Below are positions 32,158-59,509 of a stretch of DNA of 64,000 bases, piece after piece (position 1 is the first letter of the stretch; each line of letters opens with the position of its first letter). Position numbers and translations under genes: made by a program. The notes below the pieces were generated by a model. It saw only the letters and a program-made list of their open reading frames with translations, was not told where the DNA came from and did no database searches. Location: assembly GCF_008151785.1 (NCBI RefSeq), contig NZ_CP036523.1, positions 1,550,001-1,614,000 of the forward strand, read 5' to 3'. This DNA comes from Peptacetobacter hiranonis (GTDB taxonomy: Bacteria > Bacillota > Clostridia > Peptostreptococcales > Peptostreptococcaceae).

Positions 32158-32425
32158 AAACTCGCTCCCTATGATAAACATAGGGGCGAGTATTATTCGC
32201 GGTACCACCCTAATTTACAGATAAAATCTGCTTCTCCGGTAATCCTTAGCTATAACGTCGCTACCGTAAATCTCTAATAGTAAAATACGTTCAAGATTTA
32301 TGCTCCAAGACTGCTTCAATCTGCCTATTCCAAGGGGTCTCAGCTATTCCCTCTCTCTGTGCAAAATCAGTAGATTTACTCCTTCTTTTCTTTGCATTTG
32401 ATAAATATTTTTATTTATTCATATA
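32158..32425 (-). promoter_or_regulatory. T-box riboswitch of alaS
   Basis: On the minus strand the leader contains the T-box sequence AGGGTGGTACCGCG (32198-32211), which pairs with the free acceptor end of uncharged tRNA. A strong terminator follows, ACTCGCCCC...GGGAGCGAGT plus eight T (about 32160-32191). Further upstream the Stem I region holds AGAGAG-type elements and candidate GCA triplets for an alanine specifier. Uncharged tRNA(Ala) is expected to stabilise the antiterminator and allow alaS expression. The specifier codon was not fixed with certainty. Confidence 0.93.
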
Positions 32426-55713: not shown

Positions 55714-56400
55714 CTATTTTTTGTCCAAAAGATCTGGTCTTCTTTCCTTAGTTATCTTTATAGATTCTTCTCTTCTCCATTCATCTATTTTTTTATGATT
55801 TCCAGAAAGAAGAACTTCTGGTACTTCCATTCCTTCATACACTCTAGGTCTAGTGTACTGAGGATATTCTAATAGATTATTTTCAAAAGATTCATCTTCA
55901 AAAGATTCATTCTGACCAAGAACTCCTGGAATAAGTCTAGAAATAGAGTCTATAACTACTAATGCAGCCAATTCTCCACCTGTAAGGACATAATCTCCTA
56001 TAGATATCTCATCAGTAACAATCATATCTATTACTCTCTGATCTATACCTTCATAATGTCCACAAAGAAGTATTACATCTTCCTCTATAGATAGTTTTTT
56101 TGCTATTTCCTGACAATGCACTTTCCCCTTTGGAGTAAGGTATATTACTCTAGGGTTTTCAATTTTATTTGTTTCTACTATATGTTTGTATGTATCAATT
56201 ATAGGCTGAGGAGTCATTACCATACCTGCCCCTCCACCAAATGGATAATCATCTACTTTTTTATGTTTATTCTCAGAAAAATCTCTTATATTATATACTT
56301 TACAATCTATTATCCCTTTTTCTATCGCTCTTTTCATTATACTTTCATTCATATAAGAATTAAATATTTCGGGAAATAGAGTCATTATGTGAAATCTCAT
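55714..56400 (-). CDS. trmD: tRNA (guanine-N1-)-methyltransferase
   Basis: TrmD methylates G37 of tRNAs reading CNN codons, preventing frameshifts. The 228-residue protein has the trefoil-knot motifs: MRFHIMTLFPEIFNSYM, DDYPFGGGAGMVM, LLCGHYEGIDQRVID, EISIGDYVLTGGELAALVVI and LEYPQYTRPRVYEGMEVPEV. The start at 56400 follows AGGTGA; a GTG three codons earlier is part of that site. It begins 9 bp after the rimM stop, in the same operon. Confidence 0.97.
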   Translation of the reverse strand: MRFHIMTLFPEIFNSYMNESIMKRAIEKGIIDCKVYNIRDFSENKHKKVDDYPFGGGAGMVMTPQPIIDTYKHIVETNKIENPRVIYLTPKGKVHCQEIAKKLSIEEDVILLCGHYEGIDQRVIDMIVTDEISIGDYVLTGGELAALVVIDSISRLIPGVLGQNESFEDESFENNLLEYPQYTRPRVYEGMEVPEVLLSGNHKKIDEWRREESIKITKERRPDLLDKK

Positions 56401-56409
56401 ATCAATCAC

Positions 56410-56928
56410 CTAGTCGTCAAGCATACCTTTTATAGGGTCTATTATCATTTTATCTTCTTCTATATCTATTTCTGGTACAAATTTCATAACAGCCGGTATA
56501 AGATATTCTTTTCCTTCTTCATTTTTTATAACATAAACATCATTAGCTGAATACTGAAGTACTTCTTTTAAAACACCTACTTTTTCGCCTGAAACAGTAT
56601 ATACATCCATACCTATCATATCAGCTATAAAGAATTCCCCTTCTTCAAGCTCAAATGATTCATCTCTAGATACATATATATCTTTTCCTACAAGCTTTTC
56701 AGCTTCTTCAACCCTATCTATTCCTTTTATTTTCATTATGACAAGGTTGCCTTTGTATCTAACATCTTCAACTTCCCAAGGATTTTCTCTATCTTTTCCT
56801 ACATAAAATTCTTCAAGGTAGTCAAATCTGTATATATCATCTGTTGTAGGATAAACTCTTACATCACCTTTTAGGCCCTGTGTTTTTACTATTTTACCAA
56901 CCTTAAAATGAGTTACTTTTTTTGCCAT
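56410..56928 (-). CDS. rimM: 16S rRNA-processing protein RimM
   Basis: RimM assists maturation of the 30S head and binds S19. The 172-residue protein shows VGKIVKTQGLKGDVRVYPTT, EFYVGKDRENPWEVEDVRYK, RVEEAEKLVGKDIYV and the PRC-barrel end YLIPAVMKFVPEIDIEEDKM with IDPIKGML. The ATG at 56928 follows AGGTGG; a GTG start three codons upstream overlaps that site. It is coupled with trmD. Confidence 0.95.
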   Translation of the reverse strand: MAKKVTHFKVGKIVKTQGLKGDVRVYPTTDDIYRFDYLEEFYVGKDRENPWEVEDVRYKGNLVIMKIKGIDRVEEAEKLVGKDIYVSRDESFELEEGEFFIADMIGMDVYTVSGEKVGVLKEVLQYSANDVYVIKNEEGKEYLIPAVMKFVPEIDIEEDKMIIDPIKGMLDD

Positions 56929-56992
56929 AATATCCACCTTAATCTTTTTGTAAGTTCTAGTTTGTTTTGCTATTATAAAAGGTTATTAAAAA

Positions 56993-57016
56993 GGATTAGG
57001 CCATAAGACCTAATCC
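56993..57016 (-). terminator. Intrinsic terminator after khpA
   Basis: The minus strand has GGATTAGG, an 8-nt loop, CCTAATCC and TTTTT. It separates the ylxM-ffh-rpsP-khpA group from rimM-trmD. Confidence 0.88.
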
Positions 57017-57019
57017 AAC

Positions 57020-57250
57020 TTATACTATTTCAAGAGATACTTTTATTTTCTCTTTATTTGCAACGGATCTAACTACAGTTCTGATAGCTTTTGCTATTCT
57101 TCCCTGTTTTCCGATAACCTTTCCCATATCGTCTGGAGCAACAGTAAGTTTTAGGATTATTTCATCCTTTTCTTCTGAAACACTTACTACTACTTCATCT
57201 GGGTTATCAACTAGAGCCTTAGCTATATCTACAACTAGCTCTTTTATCAT
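57020..57250 (-). CDS. khpA: KH-domain RNA-binding protein KhpA
   Basis: The 76-residue protein is a single KH domain with the GxxG loop in VIGKQGRIAKAIRTVVRSVA. KhpA pairs with KhpB (Jag/EloR) in Gram-positive bacteria and binds many RNAs, affecting cell elongation and division in pneumococcus. It sits between rpsP and rimM, its conserved place. The partner gene is not in this window. Confidence 0.93.
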   Translation of the reverse strand: MIKELVVDIAKALVDNPDEVVVSVSEEKDEIILKLTVAPDDMGKVIGKQGRIAKAIRTVVRSVANKEKIKVSLEIV

Positions 57251-57270
57251 AGTTTTACATCTCCCGTTTA

Positions 57271-57522
57271 TTATTTAGAAGTTTTAACACCGTTCTGTTC
57301 TAATAATTTTTTAACAGTTTCTGTTGGCTGAGCACCTGTAGCTAACCATTTTTCAGCGCTTTCGTTGTTTATTTTTAATACTTTTGGTTCTACTACTGGG
57401 TTGTAGTATCCTATTTCTTCTATGAATTTACCATCTCTTGGAGCTCTAGAGTCTGCTACTACTATTCTGTAGAAAGGTTTTTTGTTTGCTCCCATTCTTT
57501 TTAATCTTATTTTAACTGCCAT
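57271..57522 (-). CDS. rpsP: 30S ribosomal protein S16
   Basis: The 83-residue protein has the S16 sequence: [43 protein letters not shown] and an [14 protein letters not shown] end. S16 helps fold the 5' and central domains of 16S rRNA. The ATG at 57522 has GGAGGTG upstream; a GTG three codons earlier lies within that site. It is between ffh and khpA. Confidence 0.97.
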
Positions 57523-57561
57523 TACAGCCACCTCCGAAAATTTTTCTATTTTTATTTTTTA

Positions 57562-58923
57562 TTATTTAAAAAAAGGTAATCCGGCAAAACCGCCCCTTTT
57601 CTTTTTACCCTTGCCTTGTGTCATTCCAGTAAACATCTTCATCATTTTCTTCATTTCATTTAACTGTTTTATTAATCTGTTTACTTCCTGCACTGATGTT
57701 CCGCTTCCTTTTGCTATTCTTTTCTTTCTAGAAGCATTTAATATTGAAGGATTTCTTCTCTCCTCCACTGTCATCGACTGAATTATAGCCATACTTCTCT
57801 TCATATCTTTGTTGTTCTGTAAGTCTACATCGCCGATTTGATTTTTCATGTTTGCCATTCCTGGCATCATGCCTAATAACTTATCCATTGAACCCATTTT
57901 TTTAAGCTGCTCAAACTGGTCTAATAAATCTTCAAAGTCAAATTCCTGTTTTCTCATTTTCTTTTCAAGTTCTTTGGCTTTTTCGATATCTACAGCTTCT
58001 TGAGCTTTTTCAATCAGACTTAAAACATCACCCATACCAAGTATTCTTGATGCCATTCTATCTGGATGGAAAGGTTCTAAATCTTCTAATTTTTCACCCA
58101 TCCCGATGAATTTAATAGGTTTCTTTGTGACAGCTCTTATTGATAATGCTGCCCCACCTCTTGTATCACCATCTAGCTTAGTAAGTACTACACCATCTAT
58201 ACCTAATGCATCATTAAAACTTTCAGCTACATTTACCGCATCCTGTCCTGTCATTGCATCTACAGTAAGAAGTATCTCATGAGGTCTTACTTCTGATTTT
58301 ATATTTTTAAGTTCTTCCATAAGAACTTCGTCAACATGAAGTCTACCAGCTGTATCTATTATAACCATGTCATTTCCATTTTTCTGAGCATGACTTAGAC
58401 CTGCTTTTGCTATATTTACTGGATTTTCTTTATCTCCCATAGCAAATACTGGTATATCTAATTTTTCTCCTACAACCTGTAACTGTTTTATAGCTGCTGG
58501 TCTATAAACGTCACACGCAACTAATAAAGGTTTTTTACCCTGTTTTTTGAAGTATCCACCTAATTTACCAGCTGTAGTAGTTTTACCTGCCCCCTGAAGA
58601 CCAACCATCATTATAACTGTTGGCGGTTTTGATGATATCATTATCTTACTCTGAACATCACCCATTAAAGCAGTTAACTCTTCATTGACTATTTTTATTA
58701 CATGCTGTCCAGGAGTAAGACTCTTCATAACTTCCTGACCAACACATCTTTCTTGAACTTTTTTAATAAAGTCTTTTACGACTTTGAAGTTAACATCGGC
58801 TTCTAATAAAGCTAACTTAACTTCTCTCATTGCATCTTTTACATCTTTTTCAGTAAGTTTACCTTTTGATCTAAGCTTACTAAAAGTATTTTGTAATTTA
58901 TCAGATAATCCTTCAAATATCAT
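57562..58923 (-). CDS. ffh: Signal recognition particle protein Ffh
   Basis: Ffh is the SRP GTPase that recognises signal sequences and delivers ribosomes to FtsY. The 453-residue protein has the NG domain (VGLQGAGKTTTAGKLGGYF, DVYRPAAIKQL, DTAGRLHVDEVLMEE, LTKLDGDTRGGAALS). The methionine-rich M domain includes LLGMMPGMANMKNQIGD and RIAKGSGTSVQEVNRLIKQ, ending GGFAGLPFFK. It overlaps ylxM by 4 bp (ATGA), so the two are coupled. Its receptor ftsY is just upstream. Confidence 0.98.
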   Translation of the reverse strand: MIFEGLSDKLQNTFSKLRSKGKLTEKDVKDAMREVKLALLEADVNFKVVKDFIKKVQERCVGQEVMKSLTPGQHVIKIVNEELTALMGDVQSKIMISSKPPTVIMMVGLQGAGKTTTAGKLGGYFKKQGKKPLLVACDVYRPAAIKQLQVVGEKLDIPVFAMGDKENPVNIAKAGLSHAQKNGNDMVIIDTAGRLHVDEVLMEELKNIKSEVRPHEILLTVDAMTGQDAVNVAESFNDALGIDGVVLTKLDGDTRGGAALSIRAVTKKPIKFIGMGEKLEDLEPFHPDRMASRILGMGDVLSLIEKAQEAVDIEKAKELEKKMRKQEFDFEDLLDQFEQLKKMGSMDKLLGMMPGMANMKNQIGDVDLQNNKDMKRSMAIIQSMTVEERRNPSILNASRKKRIAKGSGTSVQEVNRLIKQLNEMKKMMKMFTGMTQGKGKKKRGGFAGLPFFK

Positions 58924-59288
58924 TCTATTATCCCCCTACATAAGTCTTCTATTTCATCTAGCTTAGGGATTAAATCGACACAATCTATATTGTGCAATAA
59001 ATCTTGTTTAATGTCAACAATTTTTTCTATTATATTCTTGACTGTTTCTTCTTTTTTCTGAAGTTCTGACAAAAGGTGAAGTTTCTGTTCATAATCTTTC
59101 ATTACTTTCTCAGCTCTTTTAAGAGTATCGTACACACCTTGTCTCGATACATTCAGATTTTCACTAATTTCTCCAAGCGAATAATCTTCTTCATAATAAA
59201 GAGAAACTATTTCTTTTTGCTTGTCTGTAAGAAGGTCTTTATAAACCTCGAACAGTTGTCCAACTTCTATCATCTTCTCCAAATTCAT
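58920..59288 (-). CDS. ylxM: YlxM family SRP-associated DNA/RNA-binding protein
   Basis: The 122-residue protein has a sigma-70 region 4-like helix-turn-helix: LTDKQKEIVSLYYEEDYSLG, EISENLNVSRQGVYDTLKRA. YlxM proteins are encoded before ffh in Gram-positives and modulate SRP activity in Streptococcus. The start MNLEKMIEVGQLFEVYKDLL at 59288 follows AGGAAGTG; an 11-codon longer reading contains that site. Its promoter lies within a large inverted repeat. Confidence 0.92.
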   Translation of the reverse strand: MNLEKMIEVGQLFEVYKDLLTDKQKEIVSLYYEEDYSLGEISENLNVSRQGVYDTLKRAEKVMKDYEQKLHLLSELQKKEETVKNIIEKIVDIKQDLLHNIDCVDLIPKLDEIEDLCRGIIE

Positions 59289-59327
59289 TCTTTTCACTTC
59301 CTGAATAATTGTTAAGTTCACGAATAA

Positions 59328-59413
59328 GGTCTTATAATTATTAAATACAAACCATTTTGTATCTGTAAAGGTTAAGTACTTTACACTACTATTGTATTTT
59401 ATATTATAAGACC
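59328..59413. repeat. 22-bp inverted repeat enclosing the ylxM-ffh promoter
   Basis: The left arm (59328-59350, GGTCTTATAAT then AAATACAA with a small internal difference) and the right arm (59392-59413) are complementary except for one indel region. An inner GTAAAG/CTTTAC dyad lies between them. The right arm contains the promoter -10. The whole could form a cruciform or be bound by a dimeric protein. Confidence 0.7.
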
Positions 59414-59424
59414 TCTCTTGTCAA
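59396..59424 (-). promoter_or_regulatory. Promoter for ylxM-ffh-rpsP-khpA
   Basis: On the minus strand TTGACA (59419-59424) and TAAAAT (59396-59401) are 17 bp apart. The transcript leader would be about 100 nt and would include most of the inverted-repeat loop and left arm. Confidence 0.65.
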
Positions 59425-59509
59425 CGGTTTTTATTGAAATTTTGACATTTTTATACAGTATTTTTTATCTTATAATTTATTAGTAATTCTTTTTTGTTTA
59501 TCACAAAAA

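Follow-up and report, generated by a model that had tools for sequence, protein, structure and literature searches.

The window, by which we mean the whole stretch of 64,000 nucleotides analyzed here, carries on its minus strand an operon for the signal recognition particle (SRP), which directs newly made proteins to the cell membrane; ftsY is located upstream of this operon. The gene ylxM sits directly 5' of ffh, and its promoter reads TTGACA-17-TAAAAT on the minus strand (59424-59396), with 11 of 12 consensus matches. An initial annotation of this DNA had located the -10 of that promoter in the right arm of a 22-bp inverted repeat and had noticed a smaller GTAAAG/CTTTAC dyad between the two arms. 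Both observations were borne out, the dyad lying at 59365-59384. The features of the region are the following:

55714-57531, minus strand: ORFs forming the remainder of the operon, which we take from their protein sequences to be rpsP, khpA, rimM and trmD
57562-58923, minus strand: ffh (SRP GTPase), the ORF after ylxM
58920-59288, minus strand: ylxM (PF04297, UPF0122), 122 aa, the proposed autoregulator, from ORF, profile match and structure model
59316-59350, unstranded: outer arm in the leader, a drifting inverted copy of the promoter
59364-59385, unstranded: predicted operator TGTAAAG-N8-CTTTACA, the inner dyad, defined by conservation, with half-sites at 59379-59385 and 59364-59370
59388-59390, minus strand: predicted +1 region, about 59389, placed from the -10 spacing
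59392-59425, unstranded: outer arm that is the promoter itself, from the -35 to just beyond the -10, from the arm alignment
59396-59401, minus strand: -10 box TAAAAT of the ylxM promoter, from a promoter scan, kept in the family loci
59419-59424, minus strand: -35 box TTGACA of the same promoter, from the same scan, also kept in the family loci

Elsewhere, the window holds a T-box leader at 32179-32401 (minus strand, 120.9 bits).

The outer inverted repeat

Without gaps, the outer arms pair as 59339-59350 with 59392-59403 (92%) and 59316-59338 with 59403-59425 (78%); a gapped alignment joins 59316-59350 and 59392-59425 into one imperfect inverted repeat that reaches the -35. Its score was attained by none of 500 Markov shuffles, and the single-strand DNA fold of the repeat region (z = -4.39) was matched in stability by none of 200 shuffles. 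The complementary arms of about 22 bp are thus real and above chance. They contain one mismatch and one extra base, not the single irregularity first described, and the repeat is longer than had been claimed, with further irregularities beyond the 22 bp. We also agree that the two arms cannot both be in one mRNA, since the predicted +1, deduced from the -10, is at about 59389.

We compared the region among three genomes of the genus and 30 loci of the family. Only G000 (L002) and G001 (L003) carry the inverted copy, with scores of 21 and 22 that none of 200 shuffles equalled; no copy was detected in the other 28 family loci, G002 included, where scores of 4-8 were equalled by 45-200 of 200 shuffles. 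The promoter side, taken up to the middle of the operator, differs between G000 and G001 at three positions, two in the arm and one in the operator spacer, and the leader copy shows more substitutions and gaps than this. Neither of the two arm changes is mirrored in the leader copy, whose -35 is degraded. The distance from the dyad to the ATG is 96 nt in G000 and 101 nt in G001, and 43-65 nt in the other 28 family loci. The repeat is thus not conserved in close relatives, a situation that the initial annotation had itself named as speaking against its repeat. From the restriction to two family loci and the unmirrored drift, we conclude that the outer repeat probably arose recently as an inverted duplication of the promoter, confined to a sub-lineage and neutral.

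Several roles for the arms were considered and discarded. Scattered copies of the arm, which had been raised as a possibility, were not found: a 146-bp query matches only itself in the genome (E <= 0.001), and a mobile palindromic repeat was rejected on account of this single copy. An invertible promoter of the phase-variation type was rejected on the imperfect arms, which diverge between G000 and G001, and an operator made of the outer arms on their lineage-specific and drifting nature.

Conservation and placement of the inner dyad

In full, the predicted operator reads TGTAAAG-TACTTAAC-CTTTACA; it lies between the outer arms and follows closely on the -10, spanning about +5 to +26 relative to the predicted +1, and TGTAAAG-N8-CTTTACA has no other exact match in the 2.52-Mb genome. 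The 146-base promoter region matched 28 of 61 genomes including its own, and most of these matches span the -10 and the dyad. An exact GTAAAG-N8-CTTTAC was found upstream of ylxM in all 30 family loci. Beyond the family, the core loosens to GTnAAG-N7/8-CTTnAC. It is present upstream of ylxM in 101 of 106 class loci (85 exact, 16 with one mismatch) and in 76 of 77 phylum loci (63 exact, 13 with one mismatch), for Markov control expectations of 0 and 0.04 exact sites and of 1.18 and 1.0 sites with one mismatch, respectively. Taken together, 177 of the 183 loci have the core with at most one mismatch and 148 have it exactly, in a set that is not a random draw and consists of the 30 top-scoring loci per search plus at most two per family (class) or one per family (phylum). 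Among the six loci lacking the core, L294 and L312 bear variant dyads.

A set of named loci, which overlaps the genomes of the other sets, gave a similar picture: 79 of 80 had enough upstream sequence, and 73 of these had the core, exactly in 72 (59 with N8 and 13 with N7) and with one mismatch in one. It was missing upstream of ylxM in the other six, all Aerococcaceae. In 163 N8 sites from 116 families, a flanking T (92%) and A (90%), neither of which had been used for site selection, are conserved and extend the motif to TGTnAAG-N8-CTTnACA; the conservation of the fixed positions is partly by construction, the sites having been selected at no more than one mismatch. The relaxed core also takes the form TGTCAAG-N7-CTTGACA in Tissierella creatinophila, T. 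simiarum and others, and an apparent absence of the site in Tissierella was dismissed as an artefact of the strict GTAAAG-N8-CTTTAC pattern. Longer palindromes were noticed at L120, L124, L131, L144, L196 and L202, one example being AATACCAATGTAAAG..CTTTACATTGGTATT; their outer arms vary between genomes yet remain complementary.

The site is also specific genome-wide. In 37 relatives, TGTnAAGN8CTTnACA gave 35 matches in 33 genomes, 33 of the 35 being just upstream of ylxM, and a reversed control pattern gave six matches. In 249 genomes of the phylum, 172 had a match, with 212 sites against 34 for the control as summed from our table. Among the 75 phylum matches listed, 39 lie within 250 bp of ylxM, 19 lie elsewhere and the remaining 17 belong to genomes without a listed ylxM place; six of these 17 were checked, of which five proved to be upstream of ylxM. 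The placed phylum sites (n = 64) thus divide into 44 at ylxM and 20 that are not. Five of the latter are at rpsP or rplS: a site is found at the rpsP promoter of the Bacilli-like G667, G720 and G696, and G768, which has no site at ylxM, has a site at rpsP and another at a gene whose product begins with MNPLIE, read as rplS from these first six residues only. The other 15 possibly include some excess over the chance rate of the control. All four Bacilli-like genomes viewed thus have an operator-like site at the rpsP promoter (L425-L427 and L429, the sites of L429 being at G768:C36:150182 and 152131); the labels "Bacilli-like" and "Lactobacillales-type" rest here on resemblance of the YlxM protein.

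We then placed 210 sites relative to promoters, using strict criteria and predicted promoters and starts. In 129 of them, the site lies over the +1, just downstream of a predicted -10, against 0.9 with shuffled flanks. In 47 others, the -35 of the promoter itself serves as the right half-site and a -10 follows after 16-18 nt, against 2.7 with shuffled flanks; this strict test replaced a looser one for the -35 type (9 of 12 matches) whose chance expectation was 30.4. Eight sites fit both placements and 26 neither. At least two sites are present in 32 of the 183 loci; by chance, one site or more is expected in 1.8 of the 183. In 23 of these 32 loci the first two centres are 49-53 bp apart, that is about five helical turns, bracketing the promoter. 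A dyad-symmetric site overlapping a predicted promoter, as found here, is what is expected of an operator. Sites of the -35 type would be outside the mRNA made from that promoter, which argues that the site acts as DNA and not as RNA; we regard this as very probable.

Altogether, these comparisons indicate that the inner dyad, and not the outer arms, is the conserved signal. The earlier suggestion of a DNA-level signal at the promoter is retained in so far as a DNA-level operator is most likely, with the inner dyad and not the 22-bp arms as its element. This operator is almost certainly real and functional.

YlxM as the candidate binding protein

A YlxM match was found in 233 of 249 sampled Firmicutes genomes. 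The start of Ffh follows ylxM in 183 of 183 loci, and since the two genes are never apart in this set, gene order does not tell whether the site belongs to YlxM or to ffh. Twenty genomes were searched for loss of ylxM and the 13 with a clear Ffh were used, G042, G047, G421, G511, G549, G641 and G770 being dropped; G042 and G047 were rejected as ylxM losses, having no full Ffh match either. In all 13 genomes with Ffh and without a YlxM match, the 300 nt preceding ffh contain no core, exact or with one mismatch; the four matches that these genomes do have are all on other contigs than ffh. Seven of the 13 (G578, G616, G651, G706, G730, G681 and G754) come from a single family, f129, and the 13 cases do not represent as many independent losses. 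The site is thus absent at ffh in all sampled genomes without a YlxM match, and the converse does not hold in some lineages that keep ylxM. Indeed, ylxM is kept without an upstream site in six Aerococcaceae (L116, L118, L126, L128, L133 and L140), in both f27 loci and in L296. The same is true of the Lactobacillales-type locus L211, where the recognition helix is the usual one and whose genome has sites at rpsP and likely rplS instead.

The 122-aa YlxM matches PF04297 with 101 bits for a cut-off of 22.7, and Sigma70_r4 as well; no match to sigma region 2 is present among the seven Pfam families listed for it. In its AlphaFold model (mean pLDDT 87.4), residues 8-70 resemble the -35-binding domain of Mycobacterium tuberculosis SigD (Z 10.6) and residues 4-72 resemble region 4 of E. 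coli sigma-E on -35 DNA (Z 10.3). The UPF0122 structure 1xsv gave a Z of 7.8, and the other rows listed are sigma factors or polymerase complexes. The match concerns mainly residues 1-72, and a Z near 10 in such a small helical domain may reflect a common arrangement only; a true relation of the N-terminal domain to sigma region 4 is nevertheless likely because of the independent Sigma70_r4 profile match. The -35 consensus is part of the half-site CTTGACA.

The putative recognition helix is nearly invariant, with R49 in 176 of 183 loci (K in the other seven), Q50 in 179 and D or E at position 54 in 180. L312 (f58) has K at position 54 and a swap of the inner base in each half-site (GTAAAC/GTTTAC), and L294 has N there, with C/A as inner bases. 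On the other hand, L378 has F at this position with the usual bases, which is a counter-example to covariation, and eight loci with D at 54 deviate from the site or lack it. The association between residue 54 and the inner base has a Fisher p of 0.008 with two supporting cases, uncorrected for kinship, and this apparent covariation is a hint and not a proof.

On this basis, YlxM probably binds the operator. Another protein, encoded elsewhere and dedicated to the SRP operon, could bind the palindrome in its place, and such a reading would draw on the fact that YlxM binding is predicted only and on the seven loci (the six Aerococcaceae and L211) that keep ylxM without an upstream site. We consider it unlikely, given the missing site at ffh in every one of the YlxM-less genomes (seven from a single family), the near-single-target specificity that suits a self-encoded regulator, and a half-site resembling what the domain class of YlxM reads.

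Alternatively, the start of the mRNA could fold into an RNA hairpin, GUnAAG-N8-CUUnAC, that stabilizes the transcript or serves as a protein target, possibly for YlxM with its reported binding of SRP RNA. This would agree with the large group of sites (129 of 210) where transcription, by prediction, takes in the palindrome from about +1, and with an A-rich, loop-like spacer. Positions 3 and 18 are also complementary in 105 of 177 sites against 73 expected, a result not used to decide because it fits DNA and RNA alike; the mismatched pairs at these positions are A/G (22), A/A (14) and C/T (10), which does not favor pairing in RNA. Against a hairpin are also the 47 sites overlapping a predicted -35, which would fall outside the transcript of that promoter, and the extended arms of L124, L131 and L144, which take in part of the -10. 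A hairpin in the window leader was tried and rejected, folding being no better than that of shuffles (z -0.36), and an Rfam scan, which covers described families, gave no match above the gathering score at the leader. A role in RNA appears very unlikely. Least plausible of all is a function for the outer 22-bp arms, whether as operator, cruciform, mirrored promoter or invertible promoter: the repeat is well above chance and its inverted copy covers the whole promoter, but it is present in two of 30 family loci, and the copy, its -35 degraded, drifts while the promoter arm shows no corresponding changes. Our preferred reading is that TGTnAAG-N7/8-CTTnACA is the operator of the ylxM-ffh operon, most likely bound by YlxM, and we regard this explanation as a whole as probable.

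A proposed SRP-sensing loop and its relation to known systems

We propose that the N-terminal helix-turn-helix of YlxM, of the sigma region 4 type, would read each -35-like half-site (CTTGACA/CTTTACA), the two forming a mirrored pair. YlxM would block RNA polymerase from a position at the +1, from one over the -35, or from the two together with about 50 bp between them; we infer repression because the site overlies the +1 or the -35. YlxM that is free of SRP would bind its own operator and shut the ylxM promoter, and newly made SRP RNA and Ffh would draw it off, relieving the block. In Streptococcus mutans, YlxM is reported to bind Ffh and SRP RNA as well (PMC8546722), so that the free protein would signal how far YlxM exceeds SRP and the loop would be closed. 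Such autoregulation would keep the level of YlxM in check. For the titration of YlxM by SRP, we see about equal chances of its being right or wrong. The same even weight goes to the general hypothesis that a YlxM dimer is both an SRP subunit and a repressor with a -35-reading domain, which would sense SRP assembly and set the transcription of SRP genes, and in Bacilli also of those for S16 and L19, across most Firmicutes. A candidate regulator of this kind would bear on how the SRP level is set in Gram-positives and why most sampled Firmicutes keep YlxM. If true, the known repressors would gain one with the same fold as the part of sigma factors that reads promoters.

As far as we found, the regulator family, the operator and the mirrored reading of the -35 are new, whereas an autoregulated operon is known as a kind. 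The initial annotation knew of no regulator with such a site for ffh, and we found none named in the CC-licensed PMC literature; that literature also yielded no report of a YlxM operator or of YlxM autoregulation, and an earlier report elsewhere is possible.

The SRP accessory protein YlxM of S. mutans belongs to the same protein family (UPF0122, PF04297) as that of the window. The sections of PMC8546722 drawn on here give it a role in SRP itself and describe no DNA target or autoregulation. None of the seven Lactobacillales-type loci seen has the palindrome upstream of ylxM. A parallel can also be drawn with B. subtilis, whose ylxM-rplS operon has promoters P1, P2 and P3 (PMC10100781): the sites at ylxM, rpsP and likely rplS of Bacilli-like genomes match these promoters in place, the B. 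subtilis side being taken from the paper alone, and in the sections of this paper drawn on here no operator or regulator is named for P1-P3.

With sigma-70 region 4, the YlxM system shares the fold, the Pfam match and a half-site like the -35 TTGACA. It differs from a sigma factor in that YlxM has 122 aa and no region 2 match, and in that its predicted site is made of two -35-like hexamers in inverted orientation. Finally, in the feedback known from ribosomal proteins, an excess assembly component limits its own operon. The loop proposed for YlxM would follow the same logic; ribosomal-protein feedback acts via a site in the mRNA, whereas YlxM would act on DNA, by way of a palindromic operator.
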